Source: Clostridium sp.
GTDB lineage: Bacteria > Bacillota > Clostridia > Clostridiales > Clostridiaceae
NCBI RefSeq assembly: GCF_022482905.1
Contig: NZ_JAKVOI010000001.1
Location: 3,163,958-3,227,957 of the forward strand
Length of the DNA stretch: 64,000 nucleotides
Direction of reading: 5' to 3'
The notes below the pieces were generated by a model that worked only from the letters and a program-made list of their open reading frames with translations, did not search any database and was not told the origin of the DNA. Positions 50,828 through 61,948 of this stretch are shown here, piece by piece. Every line of letters starts with the position of its first letter. The first letter of the stretch is position 1. Made by a program: the position numbers and the translations under genes.

Positions 50828-51496
50828 ATGGTATTAAAGAAAAATAGAGTTCCTTTAAAAATCAAGGCAGTAATATTTGCTCTATTAAGCGTTGCTGCAA
50901 TTATAATATATGTGAATGCAGCTGTTGAAAACAGGAGAAACAATGCTAAAACCGGTCAACAGGTTCAAAAGTACTCAATAGAGGCTAAAGAAAAGAAGGA
51001 TGACAAAAATGTACAGTTGGAAGAACAGTATAAACAGGCAGAAAGCCTGTTCAGAAATAAGCAGTATGCAAATTCTATAGAGAAGGCAGATAAAATTATA
51101 GAACAGGATGTAAAATTCTATAAGGCCTATAACATAAAGGGAATAGCACTGTGCTACAGTAATAATTATGAGGAAGGAATGAAAAACATAGACAAATCCC
51201 TTGAATTAAATCCAGACTATGGATATGCTAGATTCAACAAGGCGCTTGCATATGAACTCTATGGGAAATATGATGAGGCCTTGTTATGGTATGACAAGGA
51301 TCTGGAGATAGAAAATTATGTATGGAGTTATTATGGCAAAGCAAGTATTTATGGAAGAAGAGGTGACGTTCCAAATACTGTTAAATATCTTAAGACAGCT
51401 TTGGATATATCACCGGAGATAAAAAGTACAGCTAGGGAAGAAAGAGACTTTGATCCCGTAAGAGCTTCGGAAGAATTTCAGGATTTAGTTAAATAA
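50828..51496 (+). CDS. Membrane-anchored TPR protein
   Basis: A 222-residue protein with one N-terminal transmembrane helix (about residues 10-32), a short charged linker, then about three to four tetratricopeptide repeats (AESLFRNKQYANSIEKADKI, AYNIKGIALCYSNNYEEGM, ARFNKALAYELYGKYDEAL). It probably scaffolds protein contacts outside or at the membrane. The specific role is unknown. The ATG follows TATAGGAGATATTTGAT. Its 3' end overlaps the convergent regulator gene by eight bases. Confidence 0.88.
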   Translation: MVLKKNRVPLKIKAVIFALLSVAAIIIYVNAAVENRRNNAKTGQQVQKYSIEAKEKKDDKNVQLEEQYKQAESLFRNKQYANSIEKADKIIEQDVKFYKAYNIKGIALCYSNNYEEGMKNIDKSLELNPDYGYARFNKALAYELYGKYDEALLWYDKDLEIENYVWSYYGKASIYGRRGDVPNTVKYLKTALDISPEIKSTAREERDFDPVRASEEFQDLVK

Positions 51497-53498
51497 AATT
51501 TTTATCTATACCATATTTTTTACACTTTAGGGAGATGGTTCTATGGGTTAATCCCAGTATTTTACCTACTTTATTATAACTCCCGTATTTTTTCATAGCC
51601 TTTGATATGATTTCCCTTTCGTATTCTTCAATAGTAGCCAGTTCTCCATCTTTTAGATTTATTAGACTTTCTGCATCCTGACTGTCATTTTTTATATAGA
51701 AGGGTAAATCATCTGATCTTATTGCATGTCCGTCGCACATATTTATTGCCCTTTCTATTATGTTCTCCAATTCTCTTATGTTTCCAGGCCAGTGATATTC
51801 CCTTAAATAATTTAGGGATTTCTTGTCTATTCGAGAAACGCTCTTGTTTAGTTTTTTATTTATTTTCTTTATGAAATGCTCCACCAGGAGATTTATATCT
51901 TCTTTTCGATCTCTTAAAGGAGGAAGTATTATACTTATAACATTTAATCTATAATATAAATCTTCTCTGAACTTATTGGATTTTAACATTGCCTCCAGAT
52001 TTTTATTGGTAGCGGCTATTATTCTTACATCTACCTTATGGGTGGTGAGTCCGCCTACGCTTTCAAATTCTTTCTCTTGAAGTACTCTCAGCAGTTTGAC
52101 CTGCATGGATACAGGCATATCACCTATTTCATCCAGAAATATAGTTCCCCTGTCTGCAAGATCAAATTTACCGGGTTTACTCTTTACAGCGCCGGTAAAA
52201 GCACCCTTTTCATATCCAAAAAGTTCGCTTTCAAATAAATTCTCTGGTATTGCAGCGCAATTTATTCTAATTAAAGGTTCATTTCTCCTGTTGCTGTTAT
52301 TATGTATGGCTTTTGCTATAAGCTCCTTACCTGTACCACTTTCACCTCTTATAACTACAGTGGAAGTGGATTTGGATGCTTTTTCAGCAATTACAAGACA
52401 TTCCTTCAAAGAACCGCTGTTGCCTATTATGGAATTGAAAGAACCGGCCAATCTGTTTTGTCTATTTAATTCCTCCTTATAATAATTTAGTTTTTCTTCT
52501 GAGTTCTCTAGTTTTTTAAGAAGGTCTTTTAATTCATCGGCAGTTCGTGATATTGACATTACCCCTTTGAATTTTTTATCTGCATATATTGGAGTCACTG
52601 TTGAAATTATTGTTTTATTGTCTTTATGATAAACTTTGTTTTTAATGGAAATCTTGGAATTGAATACTTTTATTCTCAAGCCGTGTGGAGAAATATTTAT
52701 TAAGTCCTTTCCCACGATATCCGGGCTTTTTATATTATAGTGATTTTCATATGCCGGATTTACATAACTCACAATTCGCCTGTCATCTATAAAGCAGATT
52801 AGTTCATGAGATGCTTCAAGTATTTTTTTGAAACGTTCATTTAGTTCCTTTATACCTACAAGATCGGAAATATCCTGAAATATACCCATGGCACCTATTA
52901 CCTTGTCATTTAAAAATATGGGAGATCTATTGGTTATTACAAGATTTTTGTTTATATACTGGGTTTCACCTACTTTTTTTCTCTTTATTTTAAGCAGATT
53001 TGGGAGATCTGAAGTTGGGATTATATCTTTTACAAACCTTCCCGTTACTTCCTGTAAGGTCTTATTTACAATTTTTAGGGCATAATCATTCATTGTGGTG
53101 ATACAGGCATTCTCATCTATGACAACTATACCGACAGGTATATTTTTAACTATTTGTTCGTAAGCTATTGTATTTTCTTCCATTATGTCATCTATTTTTG
53201 ACGCAGTAGGATTATCTTTTGACAGGTCATTGATTATGAAATTGCATAGTTTGTGCACGGCTTTTTTGCCGGTTTCGGTATCTTCCAGACAGGATACCTC
53301 GATTTTTTCATTTTGTTTTATTTTAAGAGATACGAGAGCCAGCATGCTTACAGCAAGAGGTTCTTTTGCTGCAAGATTTTTTATATACAAATTTATTCCG
53401 TATTTATTTTTAATCTGTACTGCCATATGGACAATTAAGGCTGCAATTCTTATATGAATTCCGTTTGGGATTGGTACTGTAATTATATTTTTATACAT
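51489..53498 (-). CDS. Sigma-54-dependent activator with N-terminal HPr-like domain
   Basis: A 669-residue enhancer-binding protein. Residues 1-88 form an HPr-like domain that aligns without gaps to Bacillus HPr: GIHIR with His15 and Arg17 kept, but Glu at position 46 where HPr has regulatory Ser46. Two PAS-like domains follow (about 112-215 and 220-320), then the AAA+ domain with Walker A GESGTGKE (385-392), GAFTGA (432-437), Walker B GTIFLDEIGD (451-460) and WPGNIREL (570-577). A TyrR-like helix-turn-helix ends it (YNKVGKILGLTHRTISLKCK). The start is ATG 53498 (AAGGATG upstream); a longer frame from 53534 runs through a palindrome. It is divergent from Enzyme I, which has a sigma-54 promoter. 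Confidence 0.94.
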   Translation of the reverse strand: MYKNIITVPIPNGIHIRIAALIVHMAVQIKNKYGINLYIKNLAAKEPLAVSMLALVSLKIKQNEKIEVSCLEDTETGKKAVHKLCNFIINDLSKDNPTASKIDDIMEENTIAYEQIVKNIPVGIVVIDENACITTMNDYALKIVNKTLQEVTGRFVKDIIPTSDLPNLLKIKRKKVGETQYINKNLVITNRSPIFLNDKVIGAMGIFQDISDLVGIKELNERFKKILEASHELICFIDDRRIVSYVNPAYENHYNIKSPDIVGKDLINISPHGLRIKVFNSKISIKNKVYHKDNKTIISTVTPIYADKKFKGVMSISRTADELKDLLKKLENSEEKLNYYKEELNRQNRLAGSFNSIIGNSGSLKECLVIAEKASKSTSTVVIRGESGTGKELIAKAIHNNSNRRNEPLIRINCAAIPENLFESELFGYEKGAFTGAVKSKPGKFDLADRGTIFLDEIGDMPVSMQVKLLRVLQEKEFESVGGLTTHKVDVRIIAATNKNLEAMLKSNKFREDLYYRLNVISIILPPLRDRKEDINLLVEHFIKKINKKLNKSVSRIDKKSLNYLREYHWPGNIRELENIIERAINMCDGHAIRSDDLPFYIKNDSQDAESLINLKDGELATIEEYEREIISKAMKKYGSYNKVGKILGLTHRTISLKCKKYGIDKNFI

Positions 53499-53512
53499 AT
53501 AATCATCCTTTC

Positions 53513-53528
53513 TGATAAAAAATATCAA
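53513..53528. promoter_or_regulatory. Palindrome A, candidate activator site
   Basis: TGATA-AAAAA-TATCAA, a half-site pair with a five-base spacer, just upstream of the regulator's ribosome binding site. It matches palindromes B and C except for one spacer base. Confidence 0.65.
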
Positions 53529-53542
53529 TATCAAAATAAAAT

Positions 53543-53559
53543 ATGATAAAAAGTATCAA
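53543..53559. promoter_or_regulatory. Palindrome B, candidate activator site
   Basis: ATGATA-AAAAG-TATCAA. It is 31 bases from palindrome A, close to three helical turns, so two dimers could sit on one DNA face. Confidence 0.7.
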
Positions 53560-53642: not shown

Positions 53643-53659
53643 TTGATAAAAAGTATCAA
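53643..53659. promoter_or_regulatory. Palindrome C, candidate activator site
   Basis: A perfect TTGATA-AAAAG-TATCAA, exactly 100 bases from palindrome B and about 130 bases upstream of the sigma-54 promoter, the usual distance for an upstream activating sequence. Confidence 0.75.
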
Positions 53660-53789: not shown

Positions 53790-53806
53790 TTGGCATAAAA
53801 ATTGCT
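53790..53806 (+). promoter_or_regulatory. Sigma-54 (-24/-12) promoter of the Enzyme I gene
   Basis: TTGGCATAAAAATTGCT has GG at 53792-53793 and GC at 53804-53805, separated by exactly 10 bases, and fits the TGGCAC-N5-TTGC consensus with one change. The Enzyme I start codon is 33 bases downstream. Confidence 0.88.
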
Positions 53807-53838: not shown

Positions 53839-55452
53839 ATGAAGAAAGGTATTGCAGCTTCAAAAGGATATTCGATAGGCAAAGTATATTTAAAAAAAGA
53901 TAGAAAAATAAAAATAGAAGATAGAAAAGTAGATGATGTAAAAGGAGAAATTTCAAGATTCAAGACTGCCCTTGAAGCCTCCAAAAAGCAGCTTGAAAAC
54001 ATAAAAGCCAAGGCTGAAAAAGAACTGGGTGCTGATAAAGCGGCAGTGTTTGACAGTCATATTATGCTTTTGGATGATCCGGAATTTGCAGGCTCAATAG
54101 AAGGAGAAATTGAAAGCAATAGTGTAAATGCGGAAAAGGCACTTTCTGATATGGTAAAAACGTATATGGCAACATTTGCAGCAATGGAAGATGAATATCT
54201 GAGGGAAAGGGGAGCAGATGTAAAAGATGTAGGAAAGAGAATACTGGATAATCTTACAGGCAATGTATCAGGAATTTCAGAAGTAGCGGAAAATACAGTA
54301 ATAGTGGCCCATGATTTAACTCCATCTGATACGGCGCAGCTTGATAAAAGTAAGGTTACAGCGTTTTTGACTGATATAGGTGGGAGAACTTCCCATAGTG
54401 CAATTATGTCAAGAACTCTGGAAATACCGGCAGTAGTTGGCATGAAGGATATAACTTCCTCAGTTAAAGATGGAGATATAGTAATTGTTGATGGAATTGA
54501 AGGTATTGCTATAATAAATCCTGATGAAAGAACCATAAGCGAGTATGAATTAAAGAAGGAAAATTATGAAAAGGAAAAAGCCAAACTTAAAAAGCTTATA
54601 AGTGTAGAGACAAGGACTAAAAGTGGAAAGCGTGTATTGGTGGCAGGAAATATAGGAAAACCCAAGGACGTAGATCAAGTTATAGAAAATGGTGGAGATG
54701 CCATAGGATTGTTCAGAACGGAATTTTTATATATGGATAGAGATGAGATGCCAGGCGAAGATGAACAGTTTGAAGCTTATAAATATGTTCTTGAAAAGAT
54801 GGGAAACAAATCTGTAGTTATAAGAACACTTGATATAGGTGGAGATAAAAAACTCTCATATCTTCCATTACCTGAAGAAATGAATCCCTTCCTCGGATAC
54901 AGAGCTATAAGACTTTGTCTTGACAGGCAGGACATATTCAAAGTACAGCTTAGGGCATTGCTTAGAGCATCAATTTATGGCAATCTCAAAATAATGTTTC
55001 CTATGATATCTTCTCTGGAGGAAATACTTCAGGCAAAAAATGTAATCGAGCAATGTAAAGAAGAACTTAAAAATGAAGGCAAACAGTATAAAGATGACAT
55101 AGAAGTTGGTATAATGGTTGAGATACCTGCCGCTGCTGTGAATTCTCAGGAACTTGCCAATTATGTAGATTTCTTTAGTATAGGGACTAATGATTTGATT
55201 CAATATACCTTAGCTGCAGATAGAATGAATGAAAAAGTATCATACTTGTATAATCCAATGCATCCAGCAGTGCTGAAACTTATAGAGATGACAATACAAT
55301 CTGCACACAGGGCTGGAAAGTGGTGTGGAATGTGCGGTGAGATGGCTGGTGATGAGAGGGCTATTCCTACATTGGTAGAATATGAACTGGATGAATTTTC
55401 AATGAGTGCATCTTCAATACTGAAAGCAAAACAACTCATAATGGAGAAATAA
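53839..55452 (+). CDS. ptsI: PTS Enzyme I (phosphoenolpyruvate-protein phosphotransferase)
   Basis: Transfers phosphate from PEP to HPr, starting the sugar PTS relay. The 537 residues have the N-terminal HPr-binding/phosphohistidine domain with GGRTSHSAIMSR (active His about 186) and the PEP-binding barrel with GLFRTEFLYMDRDEMP, SIGTNDLIQYTLAADR and the catalytic cysteine region WCGMCGEMAGD. The ATG follows AGAAGGGGGAATATTA. No HPr gene adjoins it; instead a divergent activator carries an HPr-like domain, and the gene has a sigma-54 promoter. It may be a second or dedicated Enzyme I, or the cell's only one; the window cannot tell. Confidence 0.95.
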   Translation: MKKGIAASKGYSIGKVYLKKDRKIKIEDRKVDDVKGEISRFKTALEASKKQLENIKAKAEKELGADKAAVFDSHIMLLDDPEFAGSIEGEIESNSVNAEKALSDMVKTYMATFAAMEDEYLRERGADVKDVGKRILDNLTGNVSGISEVAENTVIVAHDLTPSDTAQLDKSKVTAFLTDIGGRTSHSAIMSRTLEIPAVVGMKDITSSVKDGDIVIVDGIEGIAIINPDERTISEYELKKENYEKEKAKLKKLISVETRTKSGKRVLVAGNIGKPKDVDQVIENGGDAIGLFRTEFLYMDRDEMPGEDEQFEAYKYVLEKMGNKSVVIRTLDIGGDKKLSYLPLPEEMNPFLGYRAIRLCLDRQDIFKVQLRALLRASIYGNLKIMFPMISSLEEILQAKNVIEQCKEELKNEGKQYKDDIEVGIMVEIPAAAVNSQELANYVDFFSIGTNDLIQYTLAADRMNEKVSYLYNPMHPAVLKLIEMTIQSAHRAGKWCGMCGEMAGDERAIPTLVEYELDEFSMSASSILKAKQLIMEK

Positions 55453-55577: not shown

Positions 55578-56336
55578 ATGAAAAGTTTTAAGATGGTTAA
55601 GAGTATATCCATAGGTGTTCTCTTTTTGATTTTGGCATTGGGATTTACTGCGTGCAGCAAAAATAATACAAGTACTTCACAAGTTCCTTCGGATAATAAT
55701 TCTGCGGATTCACAAAAATCAACTCAAAAGTCCAGTAGTGAAACTAAAGACAAAAAGGAAGAAGTCAAGCAGGAAGAAGTCAATACAAAAGTTAAGACTT
55801 CAGGTGGAATTGAGTTTACCAAGAAGGAATTGGACAGCAATACCAAGGTTGAATTCAATACTCCCTGGGAAAGCTCCGAAGGTGGTACATATAGTGCAAC
55901 TATAGAGGGAAAAGGTGAAGAGGCAATAGAAGAGGGACAGGGCAAGATAATATTGAAAGGCAATGATAAAGTTTATTCTTTTGAACTTATAAATAATTCA
56001 CAAAAATCCCCTAAATCAATTGAATGGGCTGATGATGAAAATTTGCTCGTTGTTATTGGAATGTCAATGGGTACGGTTTCAAAAGGCGGAAACCTGTATA
56101 TGCTGAATGTGAATACAGGGAAAGTATTTTTGGTTCTGGATACACCAAGTGACAAACAGCAGGTTATGTCTGCGGAGAAAAATGGAAATAAGTTAAATCT
56201 AAAGGTAAATGTATATGATGACGATGTCTATAATAAATCCCATATAGAAAATTGGGTGATTGAGCCTTTTGATCCAAGCCTTAATAGTGATATGAAAGTT
56301 AGAGACTCTAGCGGAAAATTAATTTCAGAAATATAA
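55578..56336 (+). CDS. Lipoprotein of unknown function (DUF4652-like)
   Basis: A 252-residue secreted lipoprotein. The signal peptide ends in LGFTAC with the lipidated cysteine at residue 26. A Ser/Lys/Glu-rich linker (about 27-75) precedes a beta-rich domain with GGTYSATIEGKGEEA, KSIEWADDENLLVVIGMSMG and KGGNLYMLNVNTGKVFLV. This resembles a single beta-propeller-like unit seen in clostridial DUF4652 proteins; I am moderately sure of the label. The ATG follows AGGAGGGGTTTT. The next gene, a TPR membrane protein, is 42 bases away. Confidence 0.85.
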   Translation: MKSFKMVKSISIGVLFLILALGFTACSKNNTSTSQVPSDNNSADSQKSTQKSSSETKDKKEEVKQEEVNTKVKTSGGIEFTKKELDSNTKVEFNTPWESSEGGTYSATIEGKGEEAIEEGQGKIILKGNDKVYSFELINNSQKSPKSIEWADDENLLVVIGMSMGTVSKGGNLYMLNVNTGKVFLVLDTPSDKQQVMSAEKNGNKLNLKVNVYDDDVYNKSHIENWVIEPFDPSLNSDMKVRDSSGKLISEI

Positions 56337-59867: not shown

Positions 59868-60734
59868 ATGGTGGGATACTTGGAGCTGCTGCAAATACTT
59901 ATTAATTCGATAAAATACATGAGTTTGTCATCTGTAATGGATATACTTGTAGTATCCTATATTTTATATAAAGCATATATGCTTCTAAAGGAAACGAGAG
60001 CAGAACAGCTTTTAAAGGGAATAATACTTTTAATACTATTGATACCCATAAGCAGTTTTTTTAATCTGACAATGTTAAACTGGATACTTACAAAGACATT
60101 GACAATAGGTGTTCTTTCAATTATCATCATATTTCAGCCTGAAATCAGAAGTGCACTCGAGCATTTGGGCAGGACTGCTTTTACTGACAAGCATATTTTC
60201 GATGACGAAGAAACCATGCGGAATATTATAACTGAAATTGTGAATGCGGTGGATAATTTATCCAAAAGCAAAACAGGGGCACTTATTATAATAGAACAGG
60301 TTACGGGGCTGCAGGATATAATAAAGACAGGGACAAGACTCGATGCCATACTATCTTCTGCACTTCTGGAGAACATATTTGTAGTTAATACCCCTCTTCA
60401 TGATGGAGCCGCTGTTGTAAAAAACAATAGAATAGTAGCTGCAGGATGTTTCCTACCACTTACCGATAATGGGGATTTGAACAAGAAGTTAGGTACAAGA
60501 CATAGGGCAGGACTTGGAATATCTGAAAAATCAGATGCACTGGTGATTATTGTATCTGAGGAGACCGGGGTTATTTCACTTGCGGTGCATGGCCGAATTA
60601 CACGGGACTATACGAAAGACCATCTTAGAAATTTATTGATACGTATAATGAAAAGCAGATCTGAAAAACAGTCGGGATTTAGGGGGAAAGTAAATAAATG
60701 GAAGCGAAAATTTCAAAAAACCAAATCCTTGTAA
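59868..60734 (+). CDS. cdaA: Diadenylate cyclase CdaA
   Basis: The main membrane-bound c-di-AMP synthase. Three transmembrane helices occupy about residues 20-90, followed by the DAC domain with LHDGAAV (DGA 179-181) and GTRHRAG (RHR from 211). 288 residues from ATG 59868; an in-frame TTG at 59880, better spaced from AAGGGATGG, is an alternative start (284 residues). It is followed by cdaR with 37 bases of overlap. c-di-AMP controls osmolyte uptake and wall homeostasis. Confidence 0.96.
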   Translation: MVGYLELLQILINSIKYMSLSSVMDILVVSYILYKAYMLLKETRAEQLLKGIILLILLIPISSFFNLTMLNWILTKTLTIGVLSIIIIFQPEIRSALEHLGRTAFTDKHIFDDEETMRNIITEIVNAVDNLSKSKTGALIIIEQVTGLQDIIKTGTRLDAILSSALLENIFVVNTPLHDGAAVVKNNRIVAAGCFLPLTDNGDLNKKLGTRHRAGLGISEKSDALVIIVSEETGVISLAVHGRITRDYTKDHLRNLLIRIMKSRSEKQSGFRGKVNKWKRKFQKTKSL

Positions 60735-61948
60735 GGGCCTGCTGTATTATTATATCTTTTATCTTGTGGCTTTACATATTTAATGTAGAAAATCCAATGA
60801 GGGAAAGGAAGATTTCTGTTCCAGTGAAAATAGTAAATGAAACTGCACTCACCCGGTCAAATCTTATAAAGGTAGGAGACGATAATTACAAAATATCTCT
60901 TGATGTAAAAGGGAATGCTTCGGAGGTGTTTTCAATAAATCCTGATGATTTTGAACTGGAATGTGATTTGAGTTCTTATGTCATGAAAAAAGGGAAAAAC
61001 AATGTACCTGTGAAAGTTAAAAAGCGCCCGAAGAATATAAGTATATTAAATGAAGAAAATTTATGGATGACCATAGAACTGGATGATATTTTTAAGAAGA
61101 CGGTTCCAGTAAAACTTATCATAGAGGGTGAAACCAAGAATGGACTTCATGCAGTAAATCCTGTGCTGAATATAAAAAATGCTCAGATATCCGGTCCGTC
61201 AAGCATAGTCTACAATTTGAATTATGTAGTTGCAAGATATAATATAAAAAATATCAGCAAAAATACAAAAGTAAAAGTTGCTCTTGAAGCAGAGGATTCA
61301 TCTGGAACTATTGTAAAAAATGTAAATATAAGTCCGAAATATGTCAACATAGATATACCTGTTGCTTATATCAAGAGTGTACCTGTTCAAATAAAGACTG
61401 TAGGTAAGATTCAGGATAATATGATACTTAGATCAGTAGTATCTCTGCCTGATAAAGTATATGTATCAGGCGAACGCAAGCTTGTTTCCAGTCTGGATGG
61501 GTTGGATACGGAACCATTGGATTTAAGCCCGATTTCAAGCAGCAGGAGTGTGGATGTAAAATTGATAATACCTGATGGAATAAAGCTTGTAAATAGCAAT
61601 GGATATGTAAATTTGAAAGTTGAAGTAACCAAAAGTGGTGAATCAAATGGGGTTGAAGAGAAGAGCTTTAATCTTAACATAGAAATGAGAAATCTGAATA
61701 ACAATTATACGGCTCAACTTTCAAACAATAGTTCTTCAATTGTAGTTTCCGGGAATGAAAGTATTTTAAGCAATTTGAGCGAGAATGACATATCTTGCTT
61801 TATAGATCTATCTTCCGTGTCCCAGGGTGAGGAAAGCGTTCCTTTAAATGTGATACTTCCTGAAGGTGTATCTCTTATATCAAAGAATCCACAGAACGTG
61901 AAAGTTATTATCAGCAAAAAAACATCGGAGGGTGAAAATGCCAATTAA
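60698..61948 (+). CDS. cdaR: CdaA regulator CdaR (YbbR-domain protein)
   Basis: A membrane-anchored extracytoplasmic protein that modulates CdaA. One N-terminal transmembrane helix (about residues 12-30, ACCIIISFILWLYIFNV) is followed by four YbbR-type repeats of about 80-90 residues (for example SVPVKIVNE, TVPVKLIIEG, SVPVQIKTVG). 416 residues. It overlaps cdaA upstream and the oxidoreductase gene downstream, so all are translated from one mRNA. Confidence 0.95.
   Translation: MEAKISKNQILVRACCIIISFILWLYIFNVENPMRERKISVPVKIVNETALTRSNLIKVGDDNYKISLDVKGNASEVFSINPDDFELECDLSSYVMKKGKNNVPVKVKKRPKNISILNEENLWMTIELDDIFKKTVPVKLIIEGETKNGLHAVNPVLNIKNAQISGPSSIVYNLNYVVARYNIKNISKNTKVKVALEAEDSSGTIVKNVNISPKYVNIDIPVAYIKSVPVQIKTVGKIQDNMILRSVVSLPDKVYVSGERKLVSSLDGLDTEPLDLSPISSSRSVDVKLIIPDGIKLVNSNGYVNLKVEVTKSGESNGVEEKSFNLNIEMRNLNNNYTAQLSNNSSSIVVSGNESILSNLSENDISCFIDLSSVSQGEESVPLNVILPEGVSLISKNPQNVKVIISKKTSEGENAN

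Follow-up and report, generated by a model that had tools for sequence, protein, structure and literature searches.

A sigma-54-dependent activator with an N-terminal HPr-like domain encoded beside ptsI in Clostridium: conserved candidate sites, promoter and predicted target

E. coli DhaR, an activator of sigma-54 family descent, is steered in a manner linked to the phosphotransferase system (PTS); its sensor, which binds DhaK or DhaL, is not known to contain an HPr fold. LevR and CelR are PRD-type sigma-54 activators that respond to PTS phosphorylation and regulate genes of the PTS (PMC4706839). PTS-HPr is listed among the sensor domains of Clostridiales activators by Nie et al. 2019 (PMC6615313), where Table 1 gives dhaKLM and ptsI as DhaQ targets; we found no discussion of the role of the HPr domain in the part consulted. 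Comas et al. 2008 (PMC2405797) included 'rocr' sequences of C. perfringens and C. acetobutylicum in an HPr tree. As both papers include such proteins, the architecture of an activator with an HPr domain has already been reported and, given Table 1, sigma-54 control of ptsI has already been predicted: neither the architecture nor the link of ptsI to sigma-54 is new. Sigma-54 enrichment has been described for PTS genes, and for dihydroxyacetone kinase in Clostridia (PMC12316311). Here we analyse one such activator, encoded divergently from ptsI, the gene for Enzyme I of the PTS, in a 64,000-nucleotide stretch of Clostridium sp. DNA (contig NZ_JAKVOI010000001.1, positions 3,163,958 to 3,227,957, forward strand; hereafter the window). 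What the analysis adds is a set of palindromes between the two genes, a control against regulator-free genomes, the split of the activators into a ptsI and a dha clade, and a corrected anatomy of the active site of the HPr domain.

We propose that the protein is a sigma-54 activator dedicated to ptsI and that its HPr domain reads the charge of Enzyme I via His15, a reading to which we assign a probability of about 0.6. The features on which it draws are as follows (positions in the window).

51489..53498, minus strand: gene of the sigma-54-dependent activator, 669 aa, ATG start, domain order HPr - PAS - PAS - AAA+ - helix-turn-helix (open reading frame and Pfam)
53235..53486, minus strand: HPr-like domain, residues 5-88 (Pfam PTS-HPr, alignments, AlphaFold, Foldseek)
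53512..53528, no strand assigned: candidate enhancer site 1, CTGATAAAAAATATCAA, exact TGATA-N5-TATCA core
53543..53559, no strand assigned: candidate enhancer site 2, ATGATAAAAAGTATCAA, exact TGATA-N5-TATCA core
53643..53659, no strand assigned: candidate enhancer site 3, TTGATAAAAAGTATCAA, exact TGATA-N5-TATCA core
53790..53806, plus strand: sigma-54 promoter TTGGCATAAAAATTGCT 5' of ptsI, the sole exact match in the window
53839..55452, plus strand: ptsI, Enzyme I of the PTS, predicted target (TIGR01417, 706 bits)

The gap between the divergent genes is 340 bp. No second Enzyme I was found in the genome; besides ptsI, PF02896 matches one further frame, of 904 aa, which judged by its length is probably pyruvate phosphate dikinase. 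A stand-alone HPr gene of the normal type lies about 1.86 Mb away on the contig, and the separation of ptsI from ptsH has been remarked upon as unexplained in a review (PMC4706839). Exact TGATA-N5-TATCA cores occur 18 times in the genome, three of them in the gap, against 0.0017 expected there (P about 8e-10 for three in a single gap, computed with 341 bp). The promoter agrees with the sigma-54 consensus TTGGCATNNNNNTTGCT of PMC6615313. We count only the exact match, because with one mismatch allowed the pattern gives 3 matches in the window against 1.7 expected; genome-wide there are 18 strict promoters, that of ptsI included, and the reversed pattern has no match. Of these 18, the ptsI promoter alone has exact palindromes in the 450 bp upstream of it; two others have one single-mismatch palindrome each in that range.

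Relatives were collected with an alignment profile of the HPr and first PAS domains, which at E <= 1e-25 has matches in 76 of 194 family genomes. By our count 70 matches are of the main type (E <= 1e-60) and 19 of a sister type; 67 and 18 of these were analysed, leaving out G050 and G117 (match near a contig start), G044 (stops inside) and the sister copy of G113. The 67 main loci include close species and, at 80% identity across the HPr domain, fall into 49 clusters; the named loci L003-L013, among them L007 of the non-pathogenic C. carboxidivorans P7, overlap in part with the G-handle genomes and are not added to the counts. The search range, counted from the regulator start, was 700 bp for palindromes and 900 bp for promoters. 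ptsI is adjacent on the opposite strand in 65 of the 67 main-group loci, and these 65 also carry two or more palindromes (three or more in 51/67). The first two palindromes are spaced 28-33 bp apart in 51 of 65 loci, most often by 31 bp (26 loci), or about three helical turns. ptsI, two palindromes and a strict promoter (NTGGCAY-N5-TTGCN) coincide in 58/67; TTGGCAY-N5-TTGCW fits 53 of these 58 promoters, and a relaxed match is present in 5 of the other 9 loci, the relaxed look being limited to the 7 that have ptsI without a strict match.

As a control we used 40 hand-picked genomes without a main-group regulator, out of about 125 regulator-free genomes of the family: all 9 regulator-free genomes of the same genus, and 31 others. 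Five of the 40 carry a sister-type regulator and four have no sigma-54. In the 900 bp upstream of the ptsI start, the range used for both elements, no palindrome (0/40) and no promoter (0/40) was found. Absence of sigma-54 does not explain this result, since it is present in 36/40 control genomes, including all 9 of the same genus. Within the genus, 4 of 13 genomes have the regulator. Regulator, palindromes and promoter are thus present or absent together, with four exceptions (L212, L216, L245 and L246) that are weighed below.

Some members of the main group deviate in length. Five activators (L247-L251), of 554-557 aa, fall about 110 residues short of the usual size, perhaps through absence of one PAS domain, with HPr domain, palindromes and ptsI kept. 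The activator of L177/L012 is similarly short (559 aa), and the Enzyme I match at this locus is split in two near residue 250, possibly by a frameshift or a sequencing error.

The remaining features of the activator gene, all on the minus strand, are these.

53454-53456, minus strand: His15 codon of the HPr domain
53361-53363, minus strand: Glu46 codon, equivalent to HPr residue 41
53346-53348, minus strand: Ser51 codon, equivalent to HPr Ser46
52872..53162, minus strand: first PAS domain, residues 113-209 (Pfam PAS)
52500..52823, minus strand: second PAS domain, about residues 226-333, borders by eye (Pfam PAS)
51930..52430, minus strand: AAA+ sigma-54 interaction domain with GAFTGA, residues 357-523 (Pfam Sigma54_activat, E 1.7e-72)
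51507..51632, minus strand: C-terminal helix-turn-helix, residues 623-664 (Pfam HTH_50)

Pfam matches PAS in two stretches of the protein and gives coordinates for the best one only; GAFTGA is read directly in the translation, and the AAA lid is matched as well. An upstream TTG in the same frame, as given in the list of open reading frames, would extend the protein to 681 aa. The genome encodes sigma-54 itself (PF04552, a 464-aa frame, E 6.3e-56). The marks of a sigma-54 enhancer-binding protein are therefore all present: AAA+ domain with GAFTGA, helix-turn-helix, target sites with a -24/-12 promoter at the level of sequence, and a genomic sigma-54. We take the protein to be a genuine sigma-54 activator of the order HPr-PAS-PAS-AAA+(GAFTGA)-helix-turn-helix, as its domains indicate and as the initial annotation had described it. 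That annotation had also set it apart from regulators of the PRD/EIIA type, and this holds: no PRD or EIIA domain is matched by Pfam at E <= 0.1. Where LevR and CelR are PRD-type, the window's activator would sense by its N-terminal HPr fold.

The match of that domain to HPr is beyond chance: Pfam PTS-HPr gives E 1.2e-9 and 38.5 bits against a cut-off of 23, over 84 residues as against 76 profile positions. The AlphaFold model of the domain, built on 14 relatives, has a pLDDT of 88, and all 32 of its Foldseek matches in the PDB with E <= 1e-3 are HPr or Crh entries or complexes containing HPr or Crh (TM-score by target length 0.66-0.85). The HPr-like domain proposed on first inspection is thus borne out by its fold. 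So are His15 and Arg17, which are in place here and in 67/67 main-group orthologues. The same proposal aligned the first 50 residues to HPr without gaps and saw Glu at position 46, the site of phosphorylation by HPr kinase, as a mimic of permanent Ser phosphorylation; here we differ. In three alignments (phmmer against HPrs in the PDB; MAFFT with the host and B. subtilis HPrs; MAFFT of 67+18+2+43 sequences) HPr Ser46 falls on Ser51 of the activator, after a net insertion of 5 residues. The gapped alignments bring AVS51MLALVSL of the activator against IKS46LIGVLSL of the host HPr, the Ser46 helix, and it is on this ground that we regard Ser51 as the equivalent of Ser46. Raw identities over the disputed stretch, 4-5/32 ungapped and 6-7/29 with the 5-residue shift, are too close to decide, so the placement rests on the alignments, on the invariance of Ser51 (67/67) and on the fold; a helix starts at residue 52 of the model. 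Residue 46 is literally Glu, as had been stated, but it aligns with HPr residue 41 and is variable, with 32 Glu and 25 Asp among the 67. Of the two residues singled out for conservation, His15 is therefore invariant and residue 46 is not. Taken together, the initial observation is confirmed in part and its interpretation supported in part.

Only five columns, G13, H15, R17, A20 and S51, do not vary at all among the 67 main-group HPr domains, where the commonest residue has an average share of 0.62 over residues 1-92. The domain keeps Ala20 and the hydrophobic residues 52-56. It shares with HPr (PtsH) and Crh the fold, Arg17 and the Ser46 position, and with HPr also His15; it differs in the replacement of Pro18, in the five extra residues before the Ser46 helix and in its fusion to an activator. 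Judged by these alignments, it is an HPr with the phospho-acceptor retained and the surroundings altered, and its true anomaly is the loss of Pro18 and not a change at Ser46.

HPr His15 is the normal acceptor of the phosphoryl group of Enzyme I. On the reading we prefer, the activator would bind two or three of the TGATA-N5-TATCA palindromes in the intergenic region and drive the sigma-54 promoter, whose end lies 32 bases upstream of the start codon of ptsI; through the pair of sites near its own start the activator may also restrain its own gene. The HPr domain would act as a reporter substrate of Enzyme I: His15 would take the phosphoryl group and its phosphorylation would report the amount of charged Enzyme I in the cell, while the PAS domains would supply another cue. 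We hold weakly that the uncharged form may be active and the phosphorylated one off, a negative feedback that would match Enzyme I to demand; the opposite sign is possible. That the activator reads the state of the PTS at all is made more likely by the conserved arrangement of palindrome, sigma-54 promoter and ptsI. In its fullest form the proposal would make the activator's own HPr a receiver domain: Enzyme I would phosphorylate it at His15, and the activator would in turn control the gene that encodes this enzyme. We put this form forward tentatively, as possible but rather less than an even bet. Our searches of the open literature, a coverage that leaves subscription journals mostly outside, gave no description of HPr as a receiver domain.

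Several points weigh against this proposal. Similarity of the domain to solved HPrs is weak when judged by sequence alone, the best phmmer hit in the PDB, an HPr, having E 0.0068. The Pro18 position is never Pro in the 67 main-group members (I 42, V 13, F 8, Y 3, L 1), and HPr Lys24, Asn43 and Lys45 are replaced in nearly all of them, the Asn43 position being mostly Leu, Ile or Met and the Lys45 position mostly Ile or Val; with these four residues replaced, phosphoryl transfer may be impaired. Pro is likewise found in 0/18 members of the sister dha clade. It is found in 43/43 stand-alone HPrs, a sample in which selection favours canonical HPrs: each of the 43 loci yielded one, 30 are best-scoring PF00381 matches (the search of the 194 genomes gave the best-scoring stand-alone HPrs only), and the motif used permitted Pro or Ala at position 18. 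Nor is the palindrome rare in itself, with 18 exact sites in the genome against 10 for the reversed pattern; at two mismatches the 17-bp palindrome occurs 16 times in the window against 10.8 expected, a count reached by 8 of 100 shuffles and not significant. Among the exceptions, L212 and L216 (2/67) have neither an adjacent divergent ptsI nor palindromes nor a promoter, and L245 and L246 have palindromes with no promoter match even when relaxed. Finally, that the protein binds these sites, meets Enzyme I and is phosphorylated, and in which direction it then responds, are predictions.

The loss of Pro18 also leaves room for another explanation. The HPr domain might be a docking surface only, which binds Enzyme I or another PTS protein without itself being phosphorylated and is held or released according to the state of its partner, much as E. 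coli DhaR is steered by the binding of DhaK and DhaL. The loss of Pro18 in 67/67 members, with retention of Ala20 and of hydrophobic residues at 52-56, would suit such a surface; His15 and Arg17, on the other hand, are kept in 67/67, more strictly than the rest of the domain, and a pure docking face should require less. We consider this account unlikely, though worth keeping in mind. The invariance of Ser51 at the HPr Ser46 position (67/67), together with an HPr kinase gene in the genome (PF07475, 1.6e-67), could instead mean that HPr kinase/phosphorylase reads the domain through Ser51, so that ptsI would be tied to the glycolytic state and not to the charge of Enzyme I. Against this stand the replacements of Lys45 and Asn43 given above and Asn at the site in the Bacillaceae-type relatives L014 and L015, and we regard it as very improbable.

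It is also improbable, in our view, that the HPr fold is a structural relic, with the PAS domains sensing a small metabolite and the control of ptsI incidental. The HPr fold is indeed separated from the AAA+ part by two PAS domains, and PAS is the usual sensor of clostridial activators (PMC6615313). Against a relic, the invariant columns of the domain are confined to the active site and the counterpart of Ser46; dhaKLM, another operon linked to the PTS, also has an activator carrying HPr; and the members shorter by about 110 residues (L247-L251, 554-557 aa) still keep the HPr domain. As for Glu46 acting as a mimic of permanent Ser46 phosphorylation, plain counting does make residue 46 a Glu; with HPr Ser46 aligned to Ser51 and residue 46 to HPr residue 41, we give this explanation practically no credence.

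The sister group offers a close comparison for the window's activator. In a tree of 37 main-type, 20 dha-type and 6 other own-genome activators (two of the genome's own without exact GAFTGA were dropped), the sister group (18 of its 19 loci analysed) forms a separate clade with support 100/99, and the ptsI group one with 100/100; L212 and L216 carry the label 'ptsI' in this tree despite having no adjacent ptsI, and the joins of long outgroup branches are flagged as unsafe. Searched by tblastn with the L225 proteins, dhaK and dhaL lie 3' of the regulator in 18/18 sister loci and dhaM in 14/18, the remaining four stretches ending in or just after dhaL; all three genes are present at the Bacillaceae-type relatives L014 and L015. 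At L225 itself Pfam finds Dak1, Dak2 and EIIA-man in the neighbours, and the regulator has the order HPr-PAS-AAA+-helix-turn-helix. Given related helix-turn-helix domains, a variant of the same site is expected in this clade. The palindrome TG[AG]TA-N5-TA[TC]CA occurs in 11/18 sister loci, in most of them as the variant TGATA-N5-TACCA, and in 0/2 Bacillaceae-type loci, and a sigma-54 promoter lies 3' of the regulator in 14/18; on these counts the link to the site is weaker than in the main group. DhaM receives its phosphate from HPr, so both clades would serve PTS-fed enzymes. The dhaKLM-linked clade thus shares with the window's activator the architecture, the sigma-54 promoter and related palindromes, whereas the latter stands in its own clade, beside ptsI and not dhaKLM. 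Our guess is that the DhaQ group of PMC6615313 merges the two.

Two further loci have HPr-domain activators in other settings. At L292 (G042:C80:5000-18050) the activator is divergent from rpoN (sigma-54, by Pfam), which is followed by a sigma-54 promoter, ptsH and ptsI, so that activator, sigma factor and both general PTS proteins are clustered. L293 (G082:C47:78000-94000) is a second HPr-domain activator within one genome; next to it come a sigma-54 promoter and then a gene for adenylate kinase, possibly an unusual target.

PrdR was considered as an identity for the window's activator and rejected: the best NCBIfam model, NF041552, gives 512 bits against a cut-off of 795. What the two have in common is the second PAS, AAA+ and helix-turn-helix part; the best stretch, residues 216-663, leaves the HPr domain outside. 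The NCBIfam model of DhaR matches residues 350-667 only.

Elsewhere in the genome there are eight further sigma-54 AAA+ proteins (L092-L099) in frames of 864-985 aa, the size of PTS regulators of the PRD/LevR type, so that sigma-54 may serve mainly the PTS in this organism. A gene for a DUF4652 protein (55578-56336) lies 3' of ptsI, with a match in 10/11 named Clostridium loci, partial in two. At 59868-61948 of the window a CdaA-type diadenylate cyclase gene overlaps a YbbR gene, the usual pairing of these genes.

Many genomes of the family thus offer a concrete candidate, an activator with an HPr domain that is encoded next to ptsI. In C. acetobutylicum, expression of ptsI is reported to be lower when ccpA is mutated, and no CRE site was found for ptsI (PMC3507653), so that an intermediate regulator is wanted there too. 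If our reading is true, the activator would be a direct charge sensor running from an enzyme to its own gene, and would set the capacity of the PTS in clostridia, in which ptsI and ptsH are separated. Through such an activator the cell may gauge and adjust its own sugar-uptake machinery, in organisms that are used for gas and solvent fermentation.

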